A stretch of DNA of 64,000 nt from the NCBI RefSeq assembly GCF_002157505.1, contig NZ_NFSC01000022.1, positions 1-64,000 of the forward strand, in the 5' to 3' direction. The position numbers and the translations under genes are program-made. Each line of letters begins with the position of its first letter. Within the stretch, counting starts at the first letter, position 1. Below are positions 55,570 to 58,313 of this stretch, in pieces. The notes under the pieces were generated by a model, which saw only the letters and a list, made by a program, of their open reading frames with translations, made no database searches and had not been told where the DNA came from. Origin of the DNA: Arthrobacter agilis. GTDB taxonomy: Bacteria; Actinomycetota; Actinomycetes; Actinomycetales; Micrococcaceae.

Positions 55570-55761
55570 TCAGTGCCAGAGGCTGTCGGCCCAGGCGGCG
55601 TCGCGCAGGTAATCCCTCGCCGGACCGATCTCCCAGAGCTGGCCCTGGGACTCGAGGACGCCGTCGTTCTGCATGGATTCGACGGCCTCCGAGGAACAAC
55701 CGAGGGCCTCGGAGAGGTCGGCGTCATCAACGGCTAGCACGATGGTGTTCCTGGCGTTCAT
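55570..55761 (-). CDS. 63-residue protein coupled to the SpaB_C gene
   Basis: A short acidic protein. DADLSEALGCSSEAVESMQNDG followed by VLESQGQLWEIGPARDYLR resembles a small helix-turn-helix with a wing, and the C terminus is Trp-rich (WADSLWH). No signal peptide is present. The start overlaps the stop of the SpaB_C gene (ATGA at 55758-55761) and AAAGGAC precedes it, so coupled translation is likely. It could be an adaptor, a peptide-recognition partner or a second precursor. I do not recognise the family. Confidence 0.65.
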   Translation of the reverse strand: MNARNTIVLAVDDADLSEALGCSSEAVESMQNDGVLESQGQLWEIGPARDYLRDAAWADSLWH

Positions 55762-56759
55762 GGTGCAGTCCTTTCGCTGGAGTGGTCCTGGCGGGCCGAT
55801 GGAGCGGTACGTGGTCCGGCCAGGTCGACCTGCGGGTGCCAGGTCCGTGCATACAGTCCCAGCGCAGCCTCCTCCCGGGCGACGAACCCGAGCCGGTTGA
55901 GCGTCATGTGCGCCTGGTACACGGTGAGATGCTGCGCACTGCGGCTGACGCGGACCTTGTCCGCGCGGTACAGGTAGGTGTCGAGGGACCGGACCCACCG
56001 GCGTCGCCAGTTGTGCACGGTGGATTCCGCAGCCGTCGCTGCCATCAGGGCATGGAAGCCCGTCGACTTGGCGGCGACCCGCAGGGTCATCGCCTCCCGC
56101 ACGCCGGGGGCGCGGGGGCCGACGTCGGCGGTGCAGGTCCGGAGGTGACCGTCCCAGTAGGAATCCCACGAGAGCCGGCGGCGGTCGGGCCACGTGGCCG
56201 AGTGCGGTCCGTGCATCATGCTGTCCGCCGCGTCGAACAGGAGAAGGGCACCGAGGGCGGAGCGGCTCTGCATACGGGGGAAGCGCGCGGTGGCCCACGC
56301 CGCGAGTTCCGAGCTGAGCTCGAACACCTCCTCGGCGAGGTGCAGGCCCTCGACGCCGCCGTACTTGACGAGGTTCGCCTCGAGCTGCGGATCGGCCATC
56401 TCCTGGCCGCCGGAGTAATACGTGTTGCTCACCGGGGCCGTGAACTGCTGGCGAACCGCCAGCAGGGGGAACTTCCCTCCGCTGCGTGCCTGAAGTGCCC
56501 GCTGGAAGGCCTGTAGCCGTTCGAGGACGCGGGGATGTGCGTGGATGCTGAGCCGGACCTGACCGGCCGGCGCGTCGTCGGCTCGGGTGAAATACCAGCG
56601 CTTGGCACCGAGTGCCTGAGCATGCGCCACCAGCGGGGTAACCAGCTCTTCGATGATGCCGTCCGCTACATCGAAGCCACCCGTCGAGAGGGAGAGATGC
56701 CACCATTGAGTGCTGACGACCGTTCGTGAGGCGGTTCGAACGGCGGTCAACTGGCTCAT
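55758..56759 (-). CDS. Stand-alone SpaB_C-like (lantibiotic dehydratase C-terminal / thiopeptide-type) protein
   Basis: A 333-residue protein. The N-terminal QWWHLSLSTGGFDVADGIIEELVTPLV, AKRWYFTRADD and QVRLSIHAHP match the SpaB_C fold, in which a Trp strand and a RY/FxR strand frame the active site. YYSGGQEMADPQLEANLVKYGGVEG and the long helical C terminus follow. SpaB_C domains eliminate glutamate from glutamylated Ser/Thr or catalyse cycloaddition in thiopeptides. No LanB N-terminal glutamylation domain is encoded nearby. AAGGAGAGA precedes ATG. It lies 83 bases after the peptide gene. Confidence 0.8.
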   Translation of the reverse strand: MSQLTAVRTASRTVVSTQWWHLSLSTGGFDVADGIIEELVTPLVAHAQALGAKRWYFTRADDAPAGQVRLSIHAHPRVLERLQAFQRALQARSGGKFPLLAVRQQFTAPVSNTYYSGGQEMADPQLEANLVKYGGVEGLHLAEEVFELSSELAAWATARFPRMQSRSALGALLLFDAADSMMHGPHSATWPDRRRLSWDSYWDGHLRTCTADVGPRAPGVREAMTLRVAAKSTGFHALMAATAAESTVHNWRRRWVRSLDTYLYRADKVRVSRSAQHLTVYQAHMTLNRLGFVAREEAALGLYARTWHPQVDLAGPRTAPSARQDHSSERTAP

Positions 56760-56842
56760 GGCTCTCTCCTTCAGGGTCTGTGGTTACCCCCGCTGGGGCG
56801 GGCTCTGAGTGGGGCCTCCGGGCTCTGGTCCGGGGCCTCCTG

Positions 56843-56983
56843 TTACTTGGGCCAGTCCCAGCTACTCGCTGCGACCTCGCCCTTGGGCCAATCCCAGCTT
56901 CCTGCGCTGGTCGACTGGCCCGCCGGCACAACAGCCCCGACCAGGATCAACAGGCCTGCAGTTGCACCGAGTACCTTCTTCAT
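56843..56983 (-). CDS. 46-residue secreted peptide with tandem SWDWPK (putative precursor)
   Basis: A tiny gene below usual calling limits. MKK starts a hydrophobic core (VLGATAGLLILVGAVVPA), with likely signal peptidase cleavage after STSA (residue 27). The remaining 19 residues contain SWDWPK at 29-34 and again at the C terminus, 41-46, joined by GEVAAS. The repeat is also visible in DNA as two 18-bp copies with one mismatch (56846-56863 and 56882-56899). AAAGGAT is 6 bases before ATG. It is probably the substrate of the SpaB_C protein, a secreted signal, or both. Confidence 0.75.
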   Translation of the reverse strand: MKKVLGATAGLLILVGAVVPAGQSTSAGSWDWPKGEVAASSWDWPK

Positions 56984-57344
56984 CGCGATCCTTTCTTTCC
57001 CGCTGTCCGGGAGGTCGAGCTGCTCCTGCACTGCCCGATCCTGCGGAAAGCCTCCCTCGGGCCTCCCGGCGAACCGGCTTCACCAGAATGTCCGGCCCGT
57101 GCGGGTAGTGTCCAGCAGTACGGGTGGCCGTTTGTGGACATGGCGCCAAGAGGACTCGGCTCCACCGCCCAGGACGACGGTGAACCGCTTTCCGCCCCGG
57201 GAATCCGCGGAAGGACGGGAATTATGAGGATTTGCGACCTGCCGGAATTGCCTGCCACGCTGATCTGTCCTTAACTGGACATGTCATGTTTTTTCCTACG
57301 CAATGATGCCGCTGGCATCACAGCGGCCCGGACAAGGACTGCCC
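56984..57344. promoter_or_regulatory. Divergent promoter region of the peptide cluster
   Basis: These 361 bases separate the peptide gene from the LuxR-type regulator. Open frames here lack binding sites and family features. The A/T-rich stretch at about 57285-57300 could supply the plus-strand promoter. No perfect palindrome was seen. Confidence 0.45.
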
Positions 57345-58313
57345 ATGCTGGATGCGACGGCGCTCGAGGTCTACCGATACGCCGTCGGACACCCGGGCTG
57401 GACCCGCTCCGAAGCCTCGGATGCGCTGGGCCTGACCCTGCGCCGCATCGACCAGGCCATCGCCGCCCTCTCCGACCGCCGCCTGCTCAGCCCGCAGGCC
57501 GGCAGCGAGGCGGGACTGGTCGCGGTATCCCCCGACGTCGCCCTCGCCGACCTCGTCGACGCGGACGAGCGCGCCGTCCAGGAACTGAAGTCACGCATCA
57601 GCAGCCAGCGGCGTGAACTCTCCAGCCTGCTGCCCACGTTTCTCGAAGCGCGGAAGAACGTGCTCGCCAGCACCTCCGTGGAGACGCTCGAGGATCCCCA
57701 TCTCATCCACCGGGTCCTCATCGACTACGGGCGGGACGTCACGGAGAAGGTCTACATCGCCCAGCCGGGACAGGGCTCGACGGCGGACGTCCACGAGGAG
57801 AGCGTCCGGAAGGACCTGGAACTGCTGGAGAACGGCGTGCGGCGGCGCACGCTCTACGACACGAGCACGCGGGACCACGTGCCGACCCGCAAGGCCGTCG
57901 AGGCGATAGCGGCCGGGGGCGGCGAATTCGGCGTCCTGCCCTTCATTCCCCTGCGTATGCTCATCTTCGACGAGAAGCTCGCCCTGGTGGCCCGCCAGCT
58001 GACGCGGGACGACAAGGCAGCCCTCGTCATTCGGGACCACAGCCTGATCAACATCTTCACGCAGCTGTTCGACATCGCCTGGGAGCTCAGCGAGTCCTAC
58101 CTCGCTCCGGACCAGGTCGGTTCGCCCCTGAGCAGCCTGCAGCGCTCGATCATCCAGGGCCTGGCGAACGGCCTGTCGGACGAGTCGATCGCCCGGCGCC
58201 TGGATATCAACGTGCGGACCTGCCGTCGGCACATCGCCTGGATGCTGGAGACGCTCCGCGCGGAGAGCCGGTTCCAGGCCGCCTTGAAGGCCCGCGAGGC
58301 GGGCTGGGTCTGA
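57345..58313 (+). CDS. TrmB/LuxR-type transcriptional regulator of the peptide cluster
   Basis: A 322-residue regulator. An N-terminal TrmB-like winged helix (YRYAVGHPGWTRSEASDALGL, RRIDQAIAALSDRRLL) is followed by a helical linker. The central domain is phospholipase-D-like in layout (TLYDTSTRDHVPTRKAVEAI, LPFIPLRMLIFDEKLALVA). A C-terminal LuxR-type helix-turn-helix ends it: GLANGLSDESIARRLDINVRTCRRHI. ATG 57345 follows AAGGAC. Its divergent position suggests that it senses the peptide or its state. Direct regulation is inferred. Confidence 0.82.
   Translation: MLDATALEVYRYAVGHPGWTRSEASDALGLTLRRIDQAIAALSDRRLLSPQAGSEAGLVAVSPDVALADLVDADERAVQELKSRISSQRRELSSLLPTFLEARKNVLASTSVETLEDPHLIHRVLIDYGRDVTEKVYIAQPGQGSTADVHEESVRKDLELLENGVRRRTLYDTSTRDHVPTRKAVEAIAAGGGEFGVLPFIPLRMLIFDEKLALVARQLTRDDKAALVIRDHSLINIFTQLFDIAWELSESYLAPDQVGSPLSSLQRSIIQGLANGLSDESIARRLDINVRTCRRHIAWMLETLRAESRFQAALKAREAGWV

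Follow-up and report, generated by a model that had tools for sequence, protein, structure and literature searches.

Genes and features of the locus

The 64,000-nucleotide stretch of Arthrobacter agilis DNA analyzed here (contig NZ_NFSC01000022.1, positions 1 to 64,000; hereafter "the window") contains a small locus that probably encodes a local peptide-signalling pair, consisting of a short precursor peptide with tryptophan motifs and the regulator that would recognize it. The minus strand carries the genes for the precursor peptide, for a stand-alone SpaB_C protein and for a 63-residue partner, whose open reading frame (ORF) shares four bases with the SpaB_C stop; the regulator gene is divergently oriented on the plus strand (Table 1). 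The first-pass annotation, made by inspection of the letters, had placed four genes here. All of them are present, with two corrected starts: the precursor reads MKK...SWDWPKGEVAASSWDWPK from a conserved ATG, and the start of the regulator was set at MLDATALEVYRY, position 57345, because the 14 codons upstream are not conserved. The annotation had also stated that the cluster holds no transporter or protease gene, and none was seen among the window's ORFs between the flanking genes. The three flanking genes that were tested (TetR, flavin mononucleotide (FMN) reductase and aminotransferase) are ordinary.

Table 1. Coordinates of the genes, motifs and putative control elements of the locus in the window.
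Feature	Position	Strand	Evidence
Precursor peptide, 46 residues	56843..56983	-	ORF; conserved in Arthrobacter relatives; purifying selection
SWDWPK, motif copy 1	56882..56899	-	pN 0, synonymous changes present, 11 distinct sequences
SWDWPK, motif copy 2, C-terminal	56846..56863	-	pN 0, synonymous changes present, 11 distinct sequences
Gap between peptide and SpaB_C, possible hairpins	56760..56842	-	GC-rich stretch conserved
Stand-alone SpaB_C (Lant_dehydr_C), 333 residues	55758..56759	-	PF14028 E 1e-17; alignment A1
63-residue partner, C-terminal tail RDAAWADSLWH	55570..55761	-	Tail in 52/55 distinct loci; alignment A3
Operator-like box B, 5' of peptide operon	57125..57142	-	Exact CATGTCCNNWWNNNGNCA match; comparable placement in many relatives
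Operator-like box A, CATGTCC-N7-GNCA, 5' of regulator	57266..57283	-	Exact CATGTCCNNWWNNNGNCA match
TrmB-like/LuxR regulator, 322 residues	57345..58313	+	GerE/LuxR helix-turn-helix (HTH) E 3.4e-8; TrmBL2 profile E 5.2e-7

Conservation of the module in the Micrococcaceae

The arrangement of peptide, SpaB_C, partner and divergent regulator is retained across genera of the Micrococcaceae. SpaB_C proteins of all kinds, recognized by a match to PF14028, were found in 69 of the 295 genomes of this family that were searched. We examined 96 loci with a SpaB_C gene of the window's group, whose sources included 60 stretches chosen from the hits and 14 loci from named or metagenome-assembled genomes; some genomes are counted under two labels, a name and a handle. 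One locus, L043, is Arthrobacter-like and lies on a contig filed as Vibrio cholerae, which probably reflects contamination or mislabelling, and it was excluded. The remaining 95 comprise 64 loci with and 31 without the regulator. The 64 correspond to 55 distinct loci, in the sense that the 200 bases before SpaB_C differ, and these are related, not independent, cases.

A short ORF with a W-x-W motif near its C-terminus is located 5' of SpaB_C in 52 of the 55 distinct loci that carry the regulator (27 of 5500 in dinucleotide shuffles), but in only two of the 29 distinct SpaB_C loci that lack it (L024 and L026; 13 of 2900 in shuffles). Thus, it is the regulator, not SpaB_C in itself, with which the WxW peptide is associated. 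The first-pass annotation had made its proposal depend on the peptide gene being conserved beside SpaB_C homologues, and this conservation proved to hold. In the three exceptions, inspection by eye revealed related sequences: in L086 an SWDWPK whose second copy is altered, in L091 IYDWPTVA and in L092 IWAWPESW. In L086 (genome G278) the SpaB_C frame is intact and no partner was found. A sequence resembling box A is kept in L024 and L026.

One Micrococcaceae genus also contains SpaB_C paralogues (L028-L031, L093, L095, L096, L099, L102, L104-L106, L108-L124), near which no regulator, partner or WxW-tail peptide was found.

Forms of the precursor peptide and selection on its motif

The 46-residue precursor has an N-terminus that, judged from its sequence, resembles a signal peptide, followed by the two SWDWPK copies. 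Among the 11 distinct sequences of this class (17 loci), the ratio of nonsynonymous to synonymous polymorphism (pN/pS) is 0 in both motif copies, compared with 0.33 in the signal region and 0.78 in the spacer. The tails in the 55 distinct loci are of the types SWDWPK (21), AWDW (9), SWEWF (7), SWDWF (4), NWEWPK (3), VWDWI (2), VWDWPQQ (2) and, once each, IWDWKN, IWDW, IWGWPQKT and VWDWL, and three loci have none. W-x-W is the sole element common to SWDWPK, NWEWPK, VWDWPQQ, AWDW, VWDWI and IWDWKN, and no Ser, Thr or Cys is conserved in the motif among these tail types. A short degenerate pattern for the peptide proved uninformative as a search query.

In one Micrococcaceae genus the peptide is encoded by ORFs without a leader, MKSWDWF and MTKVWDWI among them, which are preceded by purine-rich stretches resembling ribosome-binding sites; at a few of these loci, an in-frame upstream start would lengthen the ORF. 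In a tree of SpaB_C proteins (44 chosen rows, root unsure), the leaderless forms make up a single group of 10 (support 92/91) among the exported forms, which suggests that the signal peptide was lost once in this lineage.

Short ORFs with two Trp codons just upstream of SpaB_C, together with a hairpin-like, GC-rich part of the gap that is conserved in the Arthrobacter loci, bring to mind an attenuation leader of the trpL type, in which translation of the short ORF would control SpaB_C via the level of charged tRNA-Trp. Several observations make this explanation very improbable. Asp, Pro and Lys are conserved as strongly as Trp in the 46-residue class, exported forms occur in several genera with one to six motif copies per precursor, and other regulators of the family are accompanied by tandem motifs with one Trp each. 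Furthermore, the alignment of the gap between peptide and SpaB_C contains no base pair in which both bases have changed (L077 left out). An Rfam search gave a single match, far below its gathering score.

The SpaB_C protein and its partner

The first-pass annotation had assigned the 333-residue protein to the SpaB_C family and had observed that no glutamylating partner was encoded with it; both points are borne out. Against PF14028 the protein scores 65.6 bits (cut-off 24.4; E 1e-17) and is the single match in its genome, and against the NCBIfam thiopeptide-type model TIGR03891 it reaches 35.3, below the cut-off of 48.45. The window's genome lacks the LanB N-domain (PF04738), as do 22 of the 23 module genomes searched (17 of 17 in a first set and 5 of 6 in a second). 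The same search was positive in both split-LanB genomes (G005 and G022, the latter below the curated cut-off). In the exceptional genome, G256, which belongs to the genus Arthrobacter, the LanB N-domain lies on contig 27 and the module on contig 20. Its other SpaB_C (L002, contig 26) is of a different kind and gives a stronger match; with the LanB N-domain it is probably part of an ordinary cluster for a ribosomally synthesized and post-translationally modified peptide (RiPP).

The HxRxR sequence, the basic motif of the elimination domain in NisB, is intact in all eight PF14028 domains outside the group. It reads QVRLS in the window's protein and is variable in the relatives, some of which keep H.R.R. 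The equivalent of H961 of NisB is retained in 50 of the 55 distinct loci, is replaced by Q in two and could not be matched by the pattern in three. Some of the aligned regulator-less paralogues mentioned above lack the histidine of the H..NRLG motif. Because 22 of 23 genomes have no LanB N-domain, HxRxR is eroded and no Ser or Thr is conserved in the peptide motif, lanthipeptide chemistry at this locus appears unlikely, and glutamate elimination by SpaB_C was rejected as the default assumption on the first two of these grounds. SpaB_C and its partner are thus unlikely to be a lanthipeptide dehydratase; our guess is that SpaB_C binds or tailors the peptide.

The partner ends with the tail A[AV]WAxxxWx in 52 of the 55 distinct loci, and these are exactly the loci with a WxW tail. 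It is missing from L086 and L091, and L092 stops at a contig end. No Pfam match was obtained for the window's copy of the partner, and its N-terminal part can diverge past recognition (alignment A3), so that its functional piece would be the tail and not the HTH-like N-terminal part.

In samples of 396 phylum and 396 order genomes, searched with a threshold of E 1e-10, the SpaB_C profile had its best match outside the family at E 2e-22, which is not comparable to the 6e-70 or better reached within the group, and there was no match in plasmids and phages.

The strongest rival to a signalling function arises here. According to this alternative, the locus is a minimal RiPP cluster in which SpaB_C and the partner modify the WxW peptide in the cytosol, giving rise to a secreted metabolite, and which is switched by the regulator. 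SpaB_C domains are known RiPP enzymes, this one shares an operon with the peptide, the histidine equivalent to H961 is largely kept, partner and WxW tails coincide in the same 52 loci, and leaderless ORFs like MKSWDWF resemble very short RiPP precursors. On the other hand, the three features that speak against lanthipeptide chemistry also speak against this explanation, the motif lacking a conserved Cys as well, and the class of regulator described below has similar peptides without SpaB_C in the fetched flanks. Moreover, in G058 the SpaB_C gene is split across two frames (L107, 1047-1999), due to either a sequencing error or loss, and the frames of regulator, peptide and partner are uninterrupted. 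On balance, we regard a RiPP made by SpaB_C as unlikely, though as the explanation to be taken most seriously after peptide signalling.

The regulator and its putative operators

The regulator combines a TrmB-like domain with a GerE/LuxR-type HTH. Over residues 10-251 its profile matches TrmBL2 structures, and the Pfam TrmB model remains below its cut-off for the window's protein. No tetratricopeptide repeat (TPR) family was matched by the window's regulator at E values up to 1, nor was one present among the 25 of 39 families listed for the regulator profile, A2.

Searched for as an exact pattern, CATGTCCNNWWNNNGNCA has two matches in the window's genome, boxes A and B, both in the promoter region shared by the regulator and the peptide operon. 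Six of the eight genomes of the genus contain just the two boxes of the module; G099 contains both and one match elsewhere, and G193 contains one and three elsewhere. A reversed-pattern control gave no matches in seven of these genomes and one in G193. A version with N6 spacing was tried and gave matches at about control level, and the N7 pattern was used instead. The regulator may bind to boxes A and B.

Regulator-peptide pairs outside the Micrococcaceae

The locus is not isolated but is one branch of a wider class in which a small exported peptide gene is conserved adjacent to the regulator, though not beside every member of the family. The regulator profile matched in 21 of the 396 phylum genomes sampled and, with E values of 1e-25 or lower, in 58 of 61 genomes from a single Streptomyces-like genus. 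For each locus we applied a filter for a divergent, signal-like small ORF that either had a W among its ten C-terminal residues or contained a tandem aromatic 4-mer, and compared it with three control positions. Among 29 exploratory loci outside the family, the divergent position contained such a peptide in 11, against 2, 1 and 1 in the controls; tandem repeats, counted from the printed list, were present in 7 against 0, 0 and 0. A fresh, broader sample analyzed with the same script gave 9 of 28 against 1, 0 and 5. Two of the five hits in the last control position have tandem DDFVWP, one ends in DTSWGG and two are chance-like; three of the five may therefore represent true pairs that are oriented differently.

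The pairing is most regular in one Streptomyces-like group, defined by match profile and not as a clade, where 16 of 20 loci (19 genomes) have the divergent peptide, 15 of them in tandem, versus 0, 0 and 0 of 20 in the controls. These loci were picked by regulator match alone, before the peptides were seen; the group itself had been selected on account of tandem peptides found in it earlier. The motifs include DSGWT, DTGWT, EISWG, DSKWP, EPTWE, DIGW and DTAWS, that is, [DE]xxW with one Trp each. SpaB_C was found in none of the flanks of 109 loci from non-Micrococcaceae bacteria, plasmids and phage Chymera (tblastn, 27 queries, E 0.01), and a weak hit (E 0.003) was obtained for one of three IMG/VR loci, L241.

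Three further observations concern the Streptomyces-like loci. The sequence GAACATGATG is present in 17 of the 20 gaps between regulator and peptide (L270-L289) and is a possible operator of this group. Several of the genomes have two or three such regulators adjoining each other, and L207 has three around one repeat peptide. Finally, a protein of about 90 residues or longer with a ...CRRAL... stretch (VERALA in L235) replaces or accompanies the peptide near some Streptomyces regulators (L231, L235, L236, L238 and L199), its similarity being judged by eye.

The regulator profile also matched 85 plasmid and 2 phage records. In eight of the 12 such records that were opened, a small ORF with a Trp motif was seen by eye, six times with a clear signal-like start; none was seen in L231, L236 and L237, and L228 was ambiguous. 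In Streptomyces phage Chymera (L227, 1931-3600), a relative of the regulator is divergent from an exported peptide containing DPGWG twice, and the pair adjoins an integrase and an immunity repressor. A search of viral contigs with profile A2 found no relative, and with the phage regulator as the query it found three (L239-L241). One of these is identical, and the two diverged ones keep both DPGWG copies while the spacer changes.

Tandem repeats and export are by themselves no proof of signalling, and the exported repeats could instead serve a structural purpose, bind to the envelope or act as a bacteriocin, with the regulator setting only their dose. The existence of single-copy and of seven-residue leaderless forms, and the repeated occurrence of such peptides beside members of one regulator family, in divergent hosts as well as in a phage, make such a role improbable.

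A proposed model of peptide signalling

Taken together, these data lead us to propose, with a probability of about 0.57 and on the basis of sequence comparison, that the locus is a local peptide-signalling pair with a cytosolic TrmB/LuxR receptor. The operon would encode an exported precursor, often with several motif copies (here SWDWPK twice), from which a short Trp-motif peptide is made. The precursor would be cut outside the cell to the motif peptide, which would re-enter via an oligopeptide importer and be recognized in the cytosol by the regulator. Through the two boxes in the shared promoter, the regulator would then control its own gene as well as the peptide operon. SpaB_C and the partner, with its AAWAxxxW tail, would be accessories of the Micrococcaceae branch that most likely bind or tailor the WxW peptide. 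The window's genome encodes nine family-5 solute-binding proteins of the oligopeptide type, which make import possible but show no more than that. The first-pass annotation had left the choice between a new kind of RiPP and a secreted signal sensed through the regulator; the latter is now favoured and the former less so, because the presence of the WxW peptide follows that of the regulator and because members of the regulator family are divergent from tandem-motif peptides in flanks that are free of SpaB_C.

Several observations weigh against this model. L024 and L026 retain the peptide, SpaB_C and the partner but have no regulator at the locus (upstream ORFs were inspected in L024). The leaderless ORFs, of 7-17 codons when counted from the start nearest to the motif, have no obvious export route. 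In the fresh sample, 19 of the 28 loci lack a filter-passing peptide in the divergent position, one control position reached 5 of 28, and tandem repeats numbered 2 against 0, 0 and 2. The box pair is complete in seven of the eight genomes of the genus and there are the matches elsewhere in G099 and G193. It should also be noted that the peptide may be a product that is regulated, instead of a signal.

The recurrence of these pairs suggests an undescribed mode of bacterial signalling. More tentatively, we may be dealing with an undescribed and widespread class of actinobacterial peptides, made from exported precursors whose WxW or [DE]xxW motifs are often in tandem, each recognized by its own TrmB/LuxR regulator, used in an arbitrium-like manner in a phage, acted on as signals by SpaB_C and the partner in the Micrococcaceae, and reduced to a seven-codon gene in one lineage. 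If this is true, orphan regulators, including those of Streptomyces and of a phage that infects a laboratory host, gain candidate peptide ligands that can be synthesized and tested, and a domain of lantibiotic enzymes has been turned to another use.

Comparison with known systems

Actinobacterial signals are typically small molecules, according to an excerpt of PMC10075063. Neither a regulator-peptide pair of this kind nor a stand-alone SpaB_C with WxW peptides is described in the titles and abstract openings listed from the open literature, a set in which subscription papers are mostly not included.

The SpaB_C protein resembles the split LanB/SpaB_C enzymes of lanthipeptides and thiopeptides, like NisB and TsrE, in having a PF14028 domain with YGG and, mostly, an H..NRLG motif. 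It differs from them in that its genome has no LanB N-domain, HxRxR is eroded and the peptide motif has no conserved Ser, Thr or Cys. The regulator, in turn, is related to archaeal TrmB/TrmBL2 by its profile match to TrmBL2 chains (residues 10-251, E 5.2e-7), but has an additional C-terminal LuxR HTH and scores below the cut-off of the Pfam TrmB model.

With a relative of the regulator and an exported peptide in which the motif occurs twice, both close to an integrase and an immunity repressor, the Chymera genes are a candidate for a pair like the arbitrium-type communication system of phages, although the receptor family differs. Finally, the locus is similar to the RRNPP quorum-sensing systems of Bacillota, in which a small propeptide gene adjoins that of a DNA-binding regulator located in the cytosol and which likewise occur on plasmids and phages. 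In contrast to these, the regulator here is TrmB-like with a LuxR HTH and has no TPR family among its listed Pfam matches, the hosts belong to the Actinomycetota, the motifs are WxW or [DE]xxW and often in tandem, and one branch has SpaB_C as a putative accessory.

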